Shown here piece by piece: positions 8,952-29,300 of a stretch of 31,720 nucleotides of DNA; positions within the stretch are counted from its first letter, which is position 1, and every line of letters starts with the position of its first letter. Made by a program: the position numbers and the translations under genes. The notes beneath the pieces were generated by a model. That model worked only from the letters and a program-made list of their open reading frames with translations. It was not told the origin of the DNA and did not search any database. Source of the DNA: a virus. Location of the stretch: positions 1-31,720 of the IMG/VR virus record IMGVR_UViG_3300035701_002936, one strand, 5' to 3'.

Positions 8952-9695
8952 CTAGCGGACGCGCCCCGATCCGGCCTCCTCTTCGACCCGCTCGACGCCG
9001 TTGTCCTTCACGGTGAGGAACGCGACGATCTGCTTGCAGATCGCCTCCTCGGAGGGGACTTTGGCAAACGGGGTCGAGCACTTCGTCACCAGCGGAGCGT
9101 GCCACGCGCCATAGCGGTTCTCGACCAGCTTCGTCCGCAGGGTGACGGGGACCGGATCGCGCGGCTCCAGCCCGCTGACATCCTCGCCGGCCGCGGCCCT
9201 GGCCTGGATGCCCGCCTCCGTAATCGGCAGGTAGGGGAAGAGCCGCTTGGCCTCCCGCAAGGCGCTGGTGTTGCCGCAGAAGAACTCCAGGAAGCGGCCC
9301 GTGGAGCGCTCGTAGACCAGGAAAGAGATGCCGGCCTGGCAGTGGGAATTGGGCGTCTTGGTCCGCTCTTCGATGTCCTGGAAGGTCTTGGAGGCCCGGT
9401 CGTAGCTGACGACGATGGCCTGCATGTCGCGCATGTCGATGGCTTTCGGCCGCCGCGCCAGCGGCAGGATGTCCACCGAGGTGCCGAGGTCGATGATCTC
9501 CTCTTCGGACTCCTTGATGCCGTAGTGGCCTTGGGGAATGAGGCCCTGTTGGTTGACCTTGCTCTTGGTGAACAGTTGCAGCCGGCCGAGGAAATCGCTT
9601 CCCTTGGCGAGATCGGCGAACTGTTCGTCGGTGCCGAGTTGCGTGGAGGGAAGCTGATTGAGGTTGACGGGAACCAAAGCAGTGTTGTCGGACAT
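8952..9695 (-). CDS. Unknown protein of 247 aa, replication-region context
   Basis: The N-terminus is polar (MSDNTALVPVNLNQLPSTQL). The body includes FLGRLQLFTKSKVNQQGLIPQGHYGIKES, a beta-rich middle (IDLGTSVDILPLARRPKAID) and paired features such as CQAGISFLVYERSTGRFLEFFCGN. No catalytic motif, signal or membrane segment is seen. Proteins of this look, next to helicases and partition-like genes in phages, are sometimes single-strand-binding or recombination factors, but I cannot support that from motifs here. The ATG at 9695 has AGGT upstream. It lies 52 bp after the ParB-like gene in the same operon. Confidence 0.7.
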   Translation of the reverse strand: MSDNTALVPVNLNQLPSTQLGTDEQFADLAKGSDFLGRLQLFTKSKVNQQGLIPQGHYGIKESEEEIIDLGTSVDILPLARRPKAIDMRDMQAIVVSYDRASKTFQDIEERTKTPNSHCQAGISFLVYERSTGRFLEFFCGNTSALREAKRLFPYLPITEAGIQARAAAGEDVSGLEPRDPVPVTLRTKLVENRYGAWHAPLVTKCSTPFAKVPSEEAICKQIVAFLTVKDNGVERVEEEAGSGRVR

Positions 9696-9747: not shown

Positions 9748-10647
9748 TCAGGGTTCTTCGTCGCTACATAGACCCTCCTCGGTTTGTGCTTTCAGCCTCA
9801 TTTGGATTCTGCGGCGCTGTTCTTCGATGCTCTTGGCGTCCAGGTGAAGCGCCCATTGCAAAGCGAGCCGCCAGCCGTCTAGCGGCGAGTGGCAATTCCC
9901 GGCCGCAAGCATCAACGGCGCGGCGCACGGCTGTTGATATTCAGAGACAAGTTCATTAACGTTGCGCAAATGCGGCGTGGGCGCGGCGTCTGGCTCGTAG
10001 AGCGTGTCCATCTTTCCCTGCCGCACCGCTTCCTGGTACTTCTTGAGGAAAGCGCCGACCGTGATGCTGAACTCGGTGACGGGGGCAGCCTTCGCCAGGT
10101 CAACAAACTGCGGCTGGTAGACGCGCGGGACGCGCGCCAGCTTGTAGGCTGATTCCAGGGGAATCTCGCCCCGGTCCACGCATTTCTGGATGTCGCCGCG
10201 AAGCGCGAGCAGGTGCAACTTTTCCCGCACCCAGCCGGGGTGCTTGTGTACCATCGTGGCTACCTGTGCGATGGTGATGCCCGGCTTGCACGACAGTATT
10301 CTCTTCAACTGTCGGGCGAACTCCGTGGGCGTCGTGTCCAGCCGCACGGCGTTCGCCTGAATCTGGACCGCCAACACGTCTTCGTCCGCGAGGTTGTGCT
10401 TGACCGTGCAGGGAACCACGAGAAGACGCAGTTCGCGGGCGGCCGTGAACCGCCGAAGCCCGTCCACTACTTCATACTTGCCGGTCTGCCGGGGCGACGG
10501 CCGCACGCAGATGGAGTTGAAGAACCCCTTGTCCGTAAGCGAGTCCCGCAGTTCCAGGTACTCGACCGACTCCCTATTCACTAGCCGCAGGACCACCCAC
10601 GGTTCCACAAGCTCGTCAGTCGGGATGTCTCGGTTTTCGTCGGGCAT
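9748..10647 (-). CDS. ParB-like partition/nuclease-fold protein, 299 aa
   Basis: The N-terminal ParB/sulfiredoxin-like fold is suggested by VRPSPRQTGKYEVVDGLRRFTAAREL, which carries the GxRR motif (GLRR, 63-66) that binds nucleotide in this family, and by QANAVRLDTTPTEFARQL (97-114), which corresponds to the conserved box after it. A helix-turn-helix follows at about 124-142 (ITIAQVATMVHKHPGWVREKL). ParB proteins are CTP switches that load at parS sites. Phage relatives can instead be transcription regulators or nucleases. The ATG at 10647 is preceded by GGAAAG. A longer in-frame version would read through the palindrome at 10667-10755 and is unlikely. No ParA gene is in view. It is the first gene of the leftward operon. 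Confidence 0.82.
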   Translation of the reverse strand: MPDENRDIPTDELVEPWVVLRLVNRESVEYLELRDSLTDKGFFNSICVRPSPRQTGKYEVVDGLRRFTAARELRLLVVPCTVKHNLADEDVLAVQIQANAVRLDTTPTEFARQLKRILSCKPGITIAQVATMVHKHPGWVREKLHLLALRGDIQKCVDRGEIPLESAYKLARVPRVYQPQFVDLAKAAPVTEFSITVGAFLKKYQEAVRQGKMDTLYEPDAAPTPHLRNVNELVSEYQQPCAAPLMLAAGNCHSPLDGWRLALQWALHLDAKSIEEQRRRIQMRLKAQTEEGLCSDEEP

Positions 10648-10810
10648 TGTTTCTTTCCGCGTCAACGTGACACCTACACATGAGGTCCAAAAACGAGAAA
10701 TTTCCAAAGGAACTTTGGAAAATCGGTCGTTTTGGACCTCATGTGTAGGTGTCACTGTTCACAGCAATCAGCGAACGTAGAGCGTTTATACGCCTCTTTG
10801 AGGACGAACC
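10648..10810. promoter_or_regulatory. Divergent control region between early operons
   Basis: This 163 bp lies between the starts of the leftward ParB-like gene and the rightward primase-helicase, so it must hold, or lie close to, the promoters of both arms. It is dominated by the nested palindrome at 10667-10755. The right part contains GAGG six to seven bases before the TTG start at 10811. I see no convincing -35/-10 pair in either direction. A TTGACG occurs just upstream of the ParB-like start, but without room for a -10 box. Phage-specific or AT-poor promoters would be missed by eye. Confidence 0.5.
10667..10755. repeat. Long nested inverted repeat (possible operator, parS-like site or origin)
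   Basis: The outer arms are 10667-10695 and 10728-10755. They are complementary throughout except for one missing T in the right arm's T-run. Inside them is a second inverted repeat, TTTCCAAAG (10701-10709) and CTTTGGAAA (10713-10721), with a three-base GAA loop. The whole can form a cruciform or an RNA hairpin of nearly 90 nt. It lies between divergent starts, so it is not a terminator for either neighbour. The ParB-like gene beside it makes a partition or autoregulatory site plausible. A MITE-like mobile palindrome is the other possibility. No clear target-site duplication flanks it. Confidence 0.85.
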
Positions 10811-13465
10811 TTGAAAGTCACCGAAGCCTTCCGCAACTTCCTCCAAGCCCGAAAGACAGCGGCCAACGCCGATCTCGTGGACGCCTGGACGCCGGCAATG
10901 GAGACACAACTCAACGTCGCTCCGGGCAAGGGAGAGCCGGTCGCTGGCAAGCGGTCAACCTGGTCCGATGGAGTCAACCATTGGTTCAACATTCGCATCC
11001 CCAAGAACGCCGCCATCGACCCCTCCTTTGATGACTACACGCTCACCTTCCCGCTCGAAGAGCACGCCGAGGGGATCGGCTGCACGGGATGGGATTGGCA
11101 GGCGCGGTGCTCGCGGTGGGTCGGCTTCGACTTCGACGCCATCACGGGCCATGCCAAGGGCGTCGGAATCTCCAATGAGTCTCTACAGCAGGTCAAGGAC
11201 GCCGCCTGTGCCTTGCCCTATGTCGAAGTCCGCAAGAGCACTGGCGGAGGCGGCATCCACCTCTACGTCCGCTTCGATGGCGTCCCCACGGCGAACCACA
11301 CCGAGCACGCGGCCTTGGCCCGATGCGTGCTGGGCATGATGGCCAGCGACACCGGTTTCGACTTCGCCAGCCAGATTGACGCCTGTGGCGGCGTGATGTG
11401 GATATGGCACCGCAAGATGACAGCCGCCAACCAGGGACTTGCGGTCATCAAGCCAGCGACCAAGGTGCTCACCGCCGCCGATCTGCCGGCCAACTGGCGG
11501 GACCACATCGAGGTCGTGACCCGACGCCGCGCGAAGGTCCGCATTAACGAAATTGCTGAGGAGAACCTAGACCCCTTCGAGGCGCTGGCGTCCGGCCGAA
11601 GGATCGTCCCCTTGGATAAGAGCCACAAGGCCCAGATCGAGGCCCTGATGCGTTCCGGCTTCACGACGCTCTGGATCGCCGACCACCACCTGCTCCAAAC
11701 TCACACCTGTGCGCTGCAAGAACTCATGGATAAGGAGGCCAAGGAACTCGGACTAACTGGTTTGTTCCGGACGGACAGCAAGGGCCGCAATCCCGAGTCT
11801 CCCAACTGCTTCCTTTTCCCCCTCCCTGGCGGCGGATGGAAAGTCTACCGCTTCTCGCAGGGCGTGGGCGAAGCCGAGACCTGGACGCAGGACGGGCAAG
11901 GTTGGACCACCTGTTACTTCAACCGCCCGCCCGACCTGGGAACCGTGTGTAAGGCGTTCGGCGGTGTCGAAGACCCAGACCAGGGCGGCTTTGTCTTCAC
12001 GAAAGCTAGTGAGGCCATCGAAGCGGCTTGCATCCTGGGGCAGGAAATTCAGCTTCCCGACAAGAACATGGAGGACCGCCGCACTGTGCTCAAGGCCCAC
12101 AAGGACGGGCGGCTGATAGCCCAGATCGAAAGCACCAAAGACGACGAACAGATGCCCAACTGGCTGGACAAGAAGGGCAAATGGGTCCGCGTCTTCGACG
12201 TGAAAATCGAAGCCGAAAAGAAGGACGACCTCGGCTCCACAGAATACGATAACGTCGTTCGCGCACTGAAAACACCGAGCAAGCAATTTGCCGGCTGGAT
12301 GGTAAGGGACAACGACGAATGGGCCGGGCAACCCAGCGCGAACGTCAAGATGTACTTGCAGGATTCAGGCCTACCGAAGAATGAGGCCGAGGCGATTATG
12401 GGCGGCGCGGTGAAACGCGCATGGAAGCTCATCAACATTCCCTTCCATCCCGAGTTCCCCGGCGGCCGGCAGTGGAACATGGATGCCGCGCAGTTCCGCT
12501 TCAAGCCGGTCGAATTGGCCGACGACGAGGCCCCGCGCCACCCGCATTGGGACTTGATTTTCAATCATTTCGGGGCCGATCTGACGCCTGCGCTTCGTGA
12601 ATTGCCGTGGGCGCAGGAGGCCGGGATCAAGACCGGCGGCGATTACATGAAGATGTGGCTGGCCTGCTCGTTCCGCGATGTTTTCGAGCCGACGCCCTAC
12701 ATCTTTGCCTACGGGCCGGAGGACTGCGGAAAGTCGATCATCCATGAAGCCATCAAGCTGCTTGTGACCAAAGGCGTCGTGGAAGCCGCCCACGCCTTGA
12801 CCAGCAACAATGACTTCAACGGCGAGCTTGCAAACGCCGTCATTTGCGTCGTCGAAGAGGTGGACATCTCCAAGACCAAAGGCGCTCACGCCAAGATTAA
12901 GAGGTGGGTAACAGGCCGCGTTATCGCCATCCGCCAGATGCGCACCGATGTCTATGAACAGCCGAATACGACGCACTGGATTCAGACCGCCAACGACCCA
13001 AAGAACTGTCCGGTATTCCCCGGCGACTCGCGCATCACGGTGATCTATGTCAATGATCTGCCGCCCGAAAAAAAGATTGCCAAGCACGAGTTGCTATTGA
13101 AACTTGAGGAGGAAGCGCCGCACTTCATGCGAACACTTATGGACCTGCAACTCCCCAGGGTCCAAGACCGCTTGCGGCTGCCGGTCGTCGCCACAGCCCG
13201 CAAGCTGCAAGCCGAGGAAAGCAACCGCACGCCTTTAGAGCAGTTCATCGGGGAGTGCTGCATCGAGAAAATGGGCGAGCGGACATTGTATAAGGACTTC
13301 TTCGACCGTTTCGAGGCTTGGCTAGACCCGAGCGAACGAGGCCACTGGTCGCGCCGCACAACAATCAAAGAGCTTCCCATGCGATTCCCGACAACTAACG
13401 GCCACGCCAACAGGAAATACGTCAGCAATCTCGTACTGCGGCCGGAGGCCGGCGTGCCGTGTTAG
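10811..13465 (+). CDS. Primase-helicase: primase-polymerase N-domain and SF3 (D5-like) helicase, 884 aa
   Basis: This is a bifunctional replication protein. The N-terminal part looks like an archaeo-eukaryotic primase/PrimPol domain: WVGFDFDAITGH (103-114) supplies the metal-binding aspartates, and RKSTGGGGIHLYVRF (141-155) has the SxGxGxH-type motif. The C-terminal part is a superfamily 3 helicase: Walker A GPEDCGKS (635-642), Walker B VICVVEEVD (677-685), and a motif C-like TANDPKNCPVFPGDSR. Such proteins lay primers and unwind DNA at a phage or plasmid origin. The start is a TTG at 10811 with GAGG six to seven bases upstream. The next ATG (residue 30) would cut into conserved sequence. It is the first gene of the rightward early operon. 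Confidence 0.88.
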   Translation: MKVTEAFRNFLQARKTAANADLVDAWTPAMETQLNVAPGKGEPVAGKRSTWSDGVNHWFNIRIPKNAAIDPSFDDYTLTFPLEEHAEGIGCTGWDWQARCSRWVGFDFDAITGHAKGVGISNESLQQVKDAACALPYVEVRKSTGGGGIHLYVRFDGVPTANHTEHAALARCVLGMMASDTGFDFASQIDACGGVMWIWHRKMTAANQGLAVIKPATKVLTAADLPANWRDHIEVVTRRRAKVRINEIAEENLDPFEALASGRRIVPLDKSHKAQIEALMRSGFTTLWIADHHLLQTHTCALQELMDKEAKELGLTGLFRTDSKGRNPESPNCFLFPLPGGGWKVYRFSQGVGEAETWTQDGQGWTTCYFNRPPDLGTVCKAFGGVEDPDQGGFVFTKASEAIEAACILGQEIQLPDKNMEDRRTVLKAHKDGRLIAQIESTKDDEQMPNWLDKKGKWVRVFDVKIEAEKKDDLGSTEYDNVVRALKTPSKQFAGWMVRDNDEWAGQPSANVKMYLQDSGLPKNEAEAIMGGAVKRAWKLINIPFHPEFPGGRQWNMDAAQFRFKPVELADDEAPRHPHWDLIFNHFGADLTPALRELPWAQEAGIKTGGDYMKMWLACSFRDVFEPTPYIFAYGPEDCGKSIIHEAIKLLVTKGVVEAAHALTSNNDFNGELANAVICVVEEVDISKTKGAHAKIKRWVTGRVIAIRQMRTDVYEQPNTTHWIQTANDPKNCPVFPGDSRITVIYVNDLPPEKKIAKHELLLKLEEEAPHFMRTLMDLQLPRVQDRLRLPVVATARKLQAEESNRTPLEQFIGECCIEKMGERTLYKDFFDRFEAWLDPSERGHWSRRTTIKELPMRFPTTNGHANRKYVSNLVLRPEAGVPC

Positions 13466-14019
13466 TCCGCGTCTACCGAACCGAGCCTTATACCGCATCC
13501 GTGCTCCGCGCATTCCTGGTCGCCGAGGTGGAAGTAGACGACCAGCCCGATGACGTGGCCTTCTTTGCCGATCAGTACGGCGGCGACTTCATTGACATTG
13601 AATCCCTTGACCCGAGGAAAAGACACCATGACGCAGATCAAGGACTCCGGCACCCGCTCCAACTTCACGACCGGCGCAGTTCGCGACGGGCAGGACGGCA
13701 AAGGCCGCATGGACCTCTTGCCTGTCCGCGCGCTGATCGAAGTCGCCAAGATATTCGAGGCCGGGGCCAAGAAGTACGCCGCCCGCAACTGGGAGAAGGG
13801 GATTCCGCTCTCCCGCTATATGGACTCGGGCCTGCGCCACACCATGAAGTGGCTGCGAGGCGACCGGGACGAGCCGCACTTGGCGATGGCGTGCTGGAAC
13901 TTCCTTTGTCTGCAAGACACGCAGCTCCGCATTGCCGAAGGGCTATTGCCGATGGAACTCAACGACCTGCCCTGCAATCCCCTCGAACTGACGCCGGAGG
14001 CCAAAGCCACGCTGATTGA
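13459..14019 (+). CDS. Doubtful small gene; first ~55 codons look coding, 3' end unclear
   Basis: A GTG at 13459 with GGAGG ten bases upstream starts a frame that overlaps the primase-helicase stop by 7 nt. Its first 50 or so residues look genuine: acidic and protein-like (FLVAEVEVDDQPDDVAFFAD, then QYGGDFIDIESLDP). The frame then stays open for another 130 codons, but this part lies fully inside the diphosphohydrolase gene in a different frame and has the arginine/proline-rich look of a shadow. A stop at 13608 is one frame away. A lost stop, a frameshift or a sequence error after about codon 45 would explain this. Function is unknown. Confidence 0.35.
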   Translation: MLVRVYRTEPYTASVLRAFLVAEVEVDDQPDDVAFFADQYGGDFIDIESLDPRKRHHDADQGLRHPLQLHDRRSSRRAGRQRPHGPLACPRADRSRQDIRGRGQEVRRPQLGEGDSALPLYGLGPAPHHEVAARRPGRAALGDGVLELPLSARHAAPHCRRAIADGTQRPALQSPRTDAGGQSHAD

Positions 14020-14110
14020 CCCCTCACGCATCACGATCCGGCGGATGCGCAAGGGCACCCGGTCGGCCAAGAATCCCTTCTACCAGAAGACGAGGAAGAG
14101 CCGTGGTTAA
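13628..14110 (+). CDS. dATP/dGTP diphosphohydrolase-like protein (MazG/MazZ-type, DUF5664), 160 aa
   Basis: The residues GRMDLLPVRALIEVAKIFEA, GAKKYAARNWEKGIPLSRYM, DSGLRHTMKWLRGDRDEPHL and AMACWNF match the all-alpha family described as dATP/dGTP diphosphohydrolase N-terminal domain, which includes phage MazZ. These enzymes cut dNTPs to dNMP and pyrophosphate through acidic residues that bind magnesium. The likely ligands here are in IEVAKIFEA and GDRDEPH. The ATG at 13628 has GAGG ten bases upstream. It sits in the replication module and probably adjusts the nucleotide pool. MazZ serves 2-aminoadenine DNA synthesis in some phages, but the family is also common in phages without it, and no PurZ or DatZ gene is visible here. 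Confidence 0.8.
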   Translation: MTQIKDSGTRSNFTTGAVRDGQDGKGRMDLLPVRALIEVAKIFEAGAKKYAARNWEKGIPLSRYMDSGLRHTMKWLRGDRDEPHLAMACWNFLCLQDTQLRIAEGLLPMELNDLPCNPLELTPEAKATLIDPSRITIRRMRKGTRSAKNPFYQKTRKSRG

Positions 14111-15991: not shown

Positions 15992-16312
15992 CACTTTCCT
16001 CCAAGCAAGCATACCTCAGCGGCGCGAGACACGTGGACCGAGACGGCTCGATGTCCTTCTCATCGTCGTCGAGAAATGAATCGGTCTTTAGCGTGCGCCT
16101 GTCGAGATGCGTTCCGCCTGGACGTATCAATGTTGCCGCCTTTGGCACTTCTTCGTCACCTTGCGATCGCGGTCCTGTTGCCCCGCCGAGTTGGTTAGCG
16201 TCTAGCAGTCATGCCATCCAGATGAGGGGTGTGCCGAGAGGGTCGAAAGACCACCGGGGCGAGAACCATACTGAACATCGCCGACGCGGCCACCTAGCCG
16301 ACGGAGGGGGGA

Positions 16313-16409
16313 AATCGCTAATGACGCGGCGTCCGAGCGGCTTTTTCGCAATACCAGACTGCCAAATGAGGGTTGCGAAAAATGACCAAACGCCGCGTCG
16401 TTAGCGATT
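16313..16409. repeat. Nested inverted repeat, 97 nt, possible structured RNA
   Basis: The outer arms 16313-16332 and 16390-16409 are complementary over 20 bases with one mismatch. The inner arms TTTTTCGCAA (16342-16351) and TTGCGAAAAA (16373-16382) are perfectly complementary around a 21-base loop. Read on the minus strand, the structure begins about 14 bases after a TATAAT, so it would form the 5' end of a leftward transcript. It may be a regulatory leader or small RNA, a protein-binding cruciform, or a miniature mobile palindrome. Its two-layer architecture matches the repeat at 10667-10755, although the sequences differ. Confidence 0.82.
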
Positions 16410-16422
16410 CGAGGGTTCGGGC

Positions 16423-16428
16423 ATTATA
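16423..16428 (-). promoter_or_regulatory. Candidate -10 box (TATAAT) for leftward transcript
   Basis: On the minus strand these six bases match the bacterial sigma-70 -10 consensus exactly, in an otherwise GC-rich region. The position 17 bases upstream (CCTATA) is a poor -35, so the promoter, if real, may need an activator. Transcription would start near 16416, run through the palindrome at 16313-16409 and could continue to the gene starting at 15991. Confidence 0.4.
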
Positions 16429-16476
16429 GTCGGCTATGTGGGATGTATAGGGCGCAGTTCCGCCCCACGATAATGC

Positions 16477-16510
16477 AAAATGCCCAGGCGGCTTTCCACC
16501 TGGGCATTTT
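16477..16510 (-). terminator. Intrinsic terminator of the late tail operon (can act both ways)
   Basis: Twelve-base arms (16477-16488 and 16499-16510, AAAATGCCCAGG and its complement) are perfectly paired around a ten-base loop, and the A/T ends give a U-run on either strand. It lies 23 bp past the stop of the last late gene (16533), where the leftward late transcript should end, and it would also shield the late operon from rightward transcription. Confidence 0.88.
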
Positions 16511-16532
16511 CTTCAACCACGCTTGCCCAAGA

Positions 16533-26349: not shown

Positions 26350-29300
26350 TTACAGGGTTGCCGTGCCACGCCGCAACTCGCGTCGCAATTCGGCGGCGAT
26401 GGAACGAGCCGTCTGGCGGCTGGTTCCGCCGCCGTTCACCGTCACGTTGATGTCACCGATGTTGGTGACGCTGCCGCCTTCGCTGCGGTAGACCGGCTGC
26501 ACGCCGGCATTGATGGCGGTCAATTGCGCGGCAAAGCGCCGCGCCGAGGCGGCGTTGATGACCACCTCGCCCGGCGAGAGCATCGCCGGAATTACGTCCG
26601 TGCCCTGCGGCCTGCCGCCGAGGGCCAGAAGGTTCCATGCCTTGCCTCCGTGCGCCGCGGTCATTTCCCACGCCGGGGCCTGGACCGACTGGGAAGCCAT
26701 TGCCGCGCTCCACATGGCGTCGGCAATGTCCTGGGTCTGGCGGACCAGGTTGCTCATGTCGATCTGCGAGACTTGGCCCAATGCCCTGCCTGCGGCCTCA
26801 GCCCCATCCCTGGTTTCGCCTACGCTCTCCTTTGCCTTGCGGGCCGCTTCCTCAGCCGCCTTCAAGGCGTTCTCGATAGCCGGTCTGTTTTGCTCGGCCT
26901 CTGCCGCGCTTGGCTCCATCGCCTTCAAGCCCGCCTCGATCTTCTGGACCCGCTGCGCCGCGTCCACTGCCAAGTTGGCCTTCTTCATAAACTCCTCGAA
27001 GCCGGCCTTGCTTGCGGCACTGGGCCGGACGGCTTCAAGGTACTGGTCGTAAGCCACCTTGAGCTTGTCCAAGTCCTCCGTGGAAGGCTGCGCACCAGGG
27101 GTATTGAACTTGTCGATGGCCCCTTCCAACGCGATCAGTGCGTCCCGGATCGGTTGGAACCTGCCGGGGAACAAGCTGTTCTTGTTGGCGATGATCGCAG
27201 CCAAACCGCCGAAGCGATCCAAGTCCTTGATCCAGCCGACGTTGGCCCAGCGGTCCAGCGCGCTTTTGATCTCGCCTTGGCCTAGTTCAAGGGCCGTGTT
27301 GGCTGACTTCAAGGCGTCCTTGGTGGCGTTGTAGCTGTCGATGATCTTGGTGGCGCGCTGCAATTCTTGGGAGAAGTGCGCGATTGTCTCCTCGGCAGTC
27401 ATCCCTTTCGTGGCTTCCCACATCTGTTGACTGCCGCCGATCCTCCCCACGTCGATCATCACGCGGACAGGGCCGACACCTCGCTCAATATCCTCGCGGA
27501 ACTTGGCGAAGGTCTCCGGCGCAGAATAAAGCTGCTTGACCTCCGCCTGCGAAACACCGCCCTCCAAGGCCAGAGTGACGCGGCGCTGTAATTGGTCGAA
27601 GGCTAGAAGGTCGGCCACTTCGACCTTTTTGCCGCCCAGCCACAAGTCCTTGAACTGGGCGATGTTCTCGTCGAGCCGAGCCTGTTGCTCGGCCAACGCC
27701 TGCGGCGATTTTGCCCCGTGCTTGTCGAAGGCTTGCAGATCGGCGAGGATGTCCTTCATTAGGGCCTTCATCTCGTCGAGCCGCTTCTGCTCCTTGGCGG
27801 CCTCGTCGGCAAGCGATTGGGCGCGGGCGGCCTGCATCTCCTCTAGCTTCTTCTCGGCGTTGATCCGTGCTTCGAGGTTGGTGCGGATGCTGCGGTGCGC
27901 CTGCTCTTGCAGCCAAGTATCGCCTACTTCCTTGGCAAGCGTCGTTCCCTCGTCCAGGAAGCTCTTGGCCCGTTGCTGGATGGCTGCGGCGCGGCGCACG
28001 TCGTCCTCGGTCTGCGCCTTGGCGATCATCCGGTTCGCCTCGGCCTCCAACCCCCAACTCCGCTCAAGCAGGAGCCTTGCCTTCTGGCTCCCCTCGAACT
28101 TCACGTCCTCGTCCATCCACTTGCGGAACATCAGGTCGGAATACTCCGATTCCAAGCTGACGCGCCGGTTCTGCGACTCCTGCACGATCCGCAGGGCGGC
28201 ATTGGCGGCATTGCGGTACGCGGCGACGACCCGCTCTTGCGACGTGACCATCGACTGCATGACCTGCCGGTCGCTCTCGATGATCTCCTTGTTCTTGTCC
28301 TTGAGGTCGTCCAGGGCCTTGAAGTATTCCCGCCGAATCTTCGAGGCGCGGTCCTCCCAATTGCGGTTTTCTTCCGCCCGCTTCTTCTCTTCCGTCTCGC
28401 GCAGCGCCCGCAGTTCCTCTTCCTTGTTCTTGATGTACTCCAACGTAGCCTGGCGCTGTTCGTTGGAAAGCTGGCGAGTCTCGTTGATCGACTTCGCCGT
28501 AAAGTAGCTCATGCCGCCGAAGAGCGCGGAAATCGCCGCCGTGGCCCCCAGGGCGATCCATCCGATTGGACCGAGAGAGACCTGCGCCGCCATCGCCGCT
28601 ACGCCCAAGACACCCAAGGCAGCGGCAGCCGGGATCGCGGCAACAGCAATCGCCTGGATAGCGGCCGAGAGATTGTTGGCCCCGCCCACCATCTGCATCG
28701 TCTGCGCCAGTACATGGGTGAGGATACCGCCGAAGTCCTGGGTCAGGTTGATCTTGAGCGCATTGATCTGCGTGGTCAGCTTCTCGGCGTCCGTGGACTT
28801 GAACTGCTCGTAGACCTTGCTGAGCGCCTCGGGCGTCGATGCCTGCATCGCCTGCATGGCCTCTTCGACCTGCTTGGCCCCGCTCCCGGTCAACCGCAGC
28901 TCGGCCGTCAAGGCGCGGACATTGCGGAAGGACTTGGCAATCTGCGAAGCCATGTGGTCCGAGGCACCCGCGACCGCTTCCAGGGCACCTTGGAACCCCT
29001 TGGCCTGGACCAATTGCTCCGCCGAGGTGAAGCCCAATTCCCGGACGACCTTCTTCATGTCTTCCGAAGGTTTCAAGAAGGCGGTCATCGCCCCGCGCAG
29101 GGCCGTCACCGACTTGTGGGCGTCCATGCCGCCGATGGTCATGGCGACCATTGCGGAGTTGACTTCATCCAGGCTCACGCCCAACTCGGAGGCAATGGGC
29201 ATGACCTGGCCCATTGTGTCGGCCAGTTCCTTGCCGCGCACCCGGCCCAAGCGGATCGTGGTAAAGAACTTCGCTGCTACCGCATCGGCCTGTTCGCTCG

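Follow-up and report, generated by a model that had tools for sequence, protein, structure and literature searches.

A nested palindrome beside a PrimPol-helicase gene as a candidate stem-loop replication origin in a group of uncultured phages

The DNA considered here, referred to below as the window, is the whole of the IMG/VR virus record IMGVR_UViG_3300035701_002936, a fragment of 31,720 bases. Two divergent genes in the window face away from a short gap between them. The leftward gene (9748–10647, minus strand) encodes a ParB-like protein with the domains ParB_N and HTH_ParB, for which the Pfam search returned PF02195 and PF17762, both over the cut-off; the protein also matches TIGR00180 and ParB/Spo0J/Noc/KorB entries in the PDB. 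The rightward gene (10811–13465, plus strand) encodes a primase-helicase, and 163 bp separate its start at 10811 from the ATG of the ParB-like gene at 10647. A long nested palindrome lies in this gap and has a G+C content of 44%, compared with 62% for the sequence as a whole; GC skew is close to zero in all three gene blocks, does not switch at the palindrome and is uninformative as to an origin. Further to the right, positions 13550–14110 match PF18909, the N-terminal family of dATP/dGTP diphosphohydrolases. Owing to this gene, the PurZ family PF00709 was looked for in 20 related records and found in none of them, and a diaminopurine genome is therefore not indicated.

The primase-helicase protein has 884 aa, carries DUF5906 in the Pfam search and matches phage primase PHROGs, while its match to the C-terminal part of P4-family primases is below the cut-off and its match by sequence to the CTR of NrS-1 polymerase has an E of 0.01. 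An AlphaFold model built from 18 relatives (mean pLDDT 82.7, pTM 0.46) is closest to the C-terminal helicase of NrS-1 polymerase (E 9e-14), and the lower-ranked fold matches include D5/E5 primase-helicases, the SaPI5 primase-helicase and PriRep1. In the N-terminal alignment, the motifs GFDFDA and RKSTGGGGIHLY can be recognized, which we take to be AEP-type motifs. Because of the DUF5906 domain, the primase matches, these motifs and the NrS-1-like fold of the model, the protein is most likely a PrimPol joined to an SF3/D5-like helicase. PrimPol-SF3 helicases commonly serve as replication initiators, and this one is the presumed initiator at the palindrome. A family-A DNA polymerase is encoded in all 20 related records tested, and no family-B polymerase was found.

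The palindrome spans positions 10667–10755 and consists of one hairpin nested in another. The left outer arm (10667–10696, plus strand, 30 nt with one bulged A) and the right outer arm (10727–10755, plus strand, 29 nt) are reverse complements of each other apart from AAAAA on the left facing TTTT on the right; between them, the inner arms TTTCCAAAG (10701–10709, plus strand) and CTTTGGAAA (10713–10721, plus strand) form a 9-bp helix around the 3-nt loop GAA (10710–10712). In the repeat search, which takes the palindrome as two 43-nt arms that are 84% complementary, it is the stronger of only two inverted repeats in the window (arms of at least 20 nt within 200 bp). As single-stranded DNA it folds with −42.6 kcal/mol compared with a shuffle mean of −11.9 kcal/mol (z −12.9), an energy reached by 0 of 200 shuffles, and its self-complementarity score (z 21.5) is higher than that of any of the 781 other stretches of equal length in the window. 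The preliminary description had reported a long nested palindrome at this place in the divergent gap, and sequence, repeat search and folding against shuffles all agree that it is real, with the coordinates and anatomy given there. A second nested inverted repeat lies at 16313–16409 in the gap 16013–16532; it has 20-nt arms 57 nt apart and an inner pair TTTTTCGCAA/TTGCGAAAAA, and its architecture has no obvious counterpart among four related whole genomes.

Relatives of the primase-helicase are many in viral contigs and few in metagenome-assembled genomes, where they represent prophages; the closest of the latter belong to Planctomycetota/Pirellulales, which suggests a host of this group for the phage. 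Among cultured phages there is no close PrimPol relative of the window protein, and a distant member gives only weak helicase matches. A ParB-like gene divergent to the primase-helicase gene was found at 135 loci, yielding 76 distinct gaps, of which 75 were long enough to test. An inverted repeat with z>5 over dinucleotide shuffles is present in 63 of the 75 gaps, and the number is again 63 of 75 for gaps whose repeat outscores every other stretch of equal length at the locus; about one sixth of the gaps are without a strong repeat. The spacing between the arms differs among the relatives, from a few bases to hundreds, and the distant members have larger repeats, with arms of roughly 60–137 nt or with arms lying hundreds of bases apart. 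The element is single-copy: of 27 whole records (28–136 kb), 23 have exactly one place that fits the hairpin model. A literature search covering few subscription journals found no description of this hairpin element.

Across these phages, it is the shape of the hairpin that is kept and not its sequence. In an alignment of 30 distinct near-clade hairpins with an outer helix of 20 bp, 98.7% of the cells are paired over the 20 pairs in the 30 phages; double compensatory changes occur in 16 of the 20 outer pairs, several of which show four or five pair types. The homologous arms thus covary, with a score of 0.521 vs 0.157 after shuffling and 0.05–0.21 (at most 0.214) in slid controls, and when the left arm of one phage is set against the right arm of another, pairing drops to 52%. 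For instance, in two phages whose PrimPol and ParB proteins are 93–95% identical, 4 of 18 arm positions differ and all four are compensated (L005 vs L060). The inner helix is less regular in the relatives (63% paired), with double changes in four of its seven pairs. Although these counts come from related sequences, the covariation is so strong, and so far above the slid controls, that a chance origin is implausible. Template-switch correction of quasi-palindromes could keep the arms alike without selection on folding; the hairpin has stayed in one position while the proteins diverged to about 40% identity, which points to a function of the hairpin.

It is also possible to ask which of the two genes the hairpin accompanies. 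In two contigs (L130 and L122), the divergent ParB-like gene is missing, and ParB_N is absent from their whole records, of 49 kb and 26 kb, respectively, which are possibly fragments; the divergent neighbour there is, judging by eye from the translations, an apparent relative of the window gene at 8952–9695. A strong hairpin nevertheless remains in both: that of L130 has the nested form seen in the window and ends 3 nt before the primase start, and that of L122 is a plain 47-bp stem ending 17 nt before it. In two other loci (L080 and L084), where other genes split the ParB-like/primase pair, the repeat remains on the primase side, while it is nearer to ParB than to the primase in L003, L015 and L021, which have insertions between the pair, and also in L071 and L164. 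Since the hairpin is kept beside the primase gene in the two contigs without ParB, it does not need ParB; as far as gene arrangement can tell, it is independent of this protein and tracks the replication module. In two further loci, the gap between the ParB-like and primase genes contains a tmRNA gene (L063, 5453–5816; L064, 3686–4049).

These observations bear on what the palindrome may do. It has been reported that the origin of the Sulfolobus plasmid pRN1 takes the form of a stem-loop of 100 bp whose loop measures 58 nt, and that it adjoins the gene for a PrimPol-helicase (orf904) and is required for replication (PMC3869888). The likeness extends to the dimensions, both being stem-loops of about 90–100 bp beside a PrimPol-helicase gene with arms of about 20–26 bp split by a loop (PMC3869888). 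However, the pRN1 origin sits 3' of the gene, whereas the palindrome lies 5' of it, between divergent genes; the pRN1 loop carries a needed GTG motif, whereas the loop at 10693–10729 has neither GTG nor CAC, GTG being confined to the arms; and the function of the pRN1 origin is backed by deletion tests, whereas here an origin function is inferred. The second parallel is NrS-1 polymerase, the closest solved fold to the helicase part of the neighbouring protein, which initiates synthesis of DNA at a motif of 8 nt that reportedly occurs in both orientations and has been suggested as an origin (PMC7102993). This motif, TTTGGTTA, is missing from the window, and no ParB is annotated next to the NrS-1 primase; AB746912 itself holds only one exact copy of TTTGGTTA. 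The SaPI and PLE satellites similarly combine an initiator gene with a nearby origin, and SaPI5 primase-helicase and PriRep1 are among the fold matches mentioned above; PLE uses semi-palindromic iterons bound by RepA (PMC7145576), and its origin and RepA co-vary in modular fashion (PMC8263062). In contrast, no iterons are seen in the gap, the only direct repeat being a pair of 8-nt units within the primase gene, so that the palindrome does not fit an iteron origin of the SaPI or PLE type.

The palindrome is probably an origin, because its folding and not its letters is kept beside the gene of the presumed starter enzyme in dozens of relatives, and among origins a stem-loop or cruciform is favoured because the pRN1 origin offers a working parallel and NrS-1 polymerase starts at a motif proposed as an origin. 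In its full form, namely that the palindrome is the core of a stem-loop or cruciform phage origin used by the adjoining PrimPol-SF3 helicase, the reading has in our estimate about an even chance of being correct. The low G+C content of the palindrome and the family-A polymerase of the relatives count in its favour; the flat GC skew, the missing TTTGGTTA, the five loci with the repeat nearer to ParB, the gaps lacking a strong repeat and the one-sided wobble pairs described below count against it. We favour a mode of action like that of the pRN1 origin and do not file the palindrome as a member of that type, because the loop is without GTG and there are no iterons of the SaPI/PLE type. Among the ideas of the preliminary description, an origin fed by the adjacent primase-helicase is thus the one best borne out, through the conserved hairpins that adjoin this gene in dozens of phages and the retention of a hairpin without ParB in two contigs; that description stands in part, since its ParB binding site did not hold up, its switch for both operons is at most a possibility, and of its proposed cruciform or RNA role, the cruciform is taken up in the favoured reading, while the RNA receives some encouragement from wobble pairs.

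The palindrome could alternatively be transcribed leftward into an RNA hairpin that acts by folding in the control of translation or stability; the transcript would be the 5' leader of the ParB-like mRNA or else a small RNA. Mismatches in the outer helix are wobble-compatible on the minus, ParB-coding strand in 11 cells and on the plus strand in 2 (p 0.02), the ratio over all loci being 27 to 13, and in near relatives the hairpin ends 0–49 nt before the ParB start. By distinct columns, however, the bias is just 6 to 2 (p 0.29), and it is weaker among distant relatives; it leans towards a folded minus strand, as RNA or single-stranded DNA, or towards a mutation bias between strands, and is not decisive. 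The hairpins adjoining the primase start in the two contigs without ParB argue against a ParB mRNA leader, and in several phages the ParB start abuts the 20-bp helix, which would hinder translation. Moreover, no Rfam family scores above the gathering threshold, and a promoter consensus scan found no sigma-70-like site in the gap. An RNA hairpin is on balance rather unlikely. Below the Rfam threshold, a plant miRNA hairpin matched on both strands and was judged a chance palindrome match.

Another explanation is a dyad operator or initiator site, in which two inverted half-sites are bound as duplex DNA with no extruded hairpin, controlling both operons or replication, and the arms stay alike by coevolution or gene conversion. 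This agrees with the position of the palindrome in a divergent control region and with the outer (ACCTA) and inner (AAA) ends of the arms, which are more conserved than the rest; arm similarity also follows protein similarity (Spearman 0.63–0.68), although shared descent predicts such tracking as well. On the other hand, both arms, about 20 bp each, change together even where the candidate binding proteins are nearly identical, as in the pair of phages described above; the inner helix, set apart by unpaired stretches, has compensatory changes too; and the spacing of the arms is variable. This explanation is considered unlikely, slightly more so than an RNA.

The adjoining gene, with its ParB_N and HTH domains, suggests a parS-type centromere, and the preliminary description had named the palindrome as a possible binding site of the ParB-like protein. 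Against this speak the arms, which are single-copy and unconserved in sequence among phages with 50–95% identical ParB, and the persistence of the hairpin in the two contigs without ParB. A far better fit to parS is a separate short palindrome in the same gap, GAGCGTTTATACGCCTC (10780–10796), with the core GCGTNTANACGC at 10782–10793. The window holds one exact copy of GCGTNTANACGC; in related phage records, 39 copies occur in 22 of 23, compared with 0 for the reversed control pattern, and the core recurs 1–4 times per genome, both within and between genes, its longest forms resembling AAGAGCGTATAAACGCTCTT. In related whole records, it is thus a short palindrome in several copies, one of them near parB, as expected of parS, and it is probably the binding site of the ParB-like protein. 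It is offset to the right of the hairpin by 26–27 bp here and mostly by 31–35 bp from the outer end in relatives (range 12–46), and the insertion of an ORF that displaces the primase does not alter this spacing (L015 and L021). The likeness to ParB-parS systems is therefore limited to the ParB-like gene and the short multi-copy palindrome sharing a gap, and it differs from them in that no ParA-type ATPase (AAA_31) was found in the 23 phage records. A centromere role of the long palindrome itself is highly improbable.

Several variations around this site were seen in relatives. L015, L053 and L021 carry a small inserted ORF that by eye looks like an HNH endonuclease (FWSKVDRRG...); it follows the parS-like site and precedes the primase gene, so that the distance from hairpin to parS-like site is preserved in all three. 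The whole record of L027 (G006) encodes a second ParB_N-domain protein, at 26952–27239 and 37719–37940. In a distant clade (L045, L046, L050, L055, L057 and L058), short palindromes of the form TGATTTGATT..AATCAAATCA lie near both gene starts, outside the large inverted repeat, and are probably operators or ParB sites of that clade.

Telomere resolution by a protelomerase, as in the linear plasmid prophage N15, is hardly credible: its site telRL is in outline a nested palindrome in a phage replication region, which the present element resembles, but no ResT/TelK catalytic domain, and thus no protelomerase gene, was found in 27 related records (the window record itself being a fragment), the centre is a non-palindromic loop without a strand-symmetric axis, and the contigs run on past both sides of the palindrome. 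A mobile palindrome, MITE or REP-like insertion, suggested by the length and near-perfection of the repeat and expected to leave the dispersed copies that the preliminary description named as its mark, has a negligible chance, since the same location bears different sequences in dozens of phages, exact copies of the arm core number zero in viral_contigs and genome_contigs, and no similar stretch occurs in phages or plasmids.

For the stem-loop origin favoured here, we infer the following course of events. The nested hairpin would be extruded by negative supercoiling or protein binding, exposing AT-rich internal and terminal loops; the primase-helicase would recognize and assemble at these loops, open the duplex and prime both strands, so starting replication; and the family-A polymerase of the phage would take over after priming. 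Meanwhile, the ParB-like protein would bind the neighbouring 12–16 bp parS-like site and may regulate or organize the origin and the two divergent operons. A bolder version, which we regard as possible though doubtful, is an origin defined by shape, whose initiator recognizes the nested cruciform and whose arms are free to change as long as they remain complementary.

For most uncultured phages the origin has yet to be located, and searches for it usually rely on sequence motifs. An element conserved in shape beside a PrimPol-helicase gene gives an origin candidate that is concrete and open to experiment across an entire group of phages, and if its structure is what is recognized, it would represent a class of origins that motif searches miss and that is quick to change sequence. 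Should the origin be defined by shape, such phages could escape nucleases or satellites that target origins, and origins of this kind would be common among uncultured phages across several bacterial phyla.
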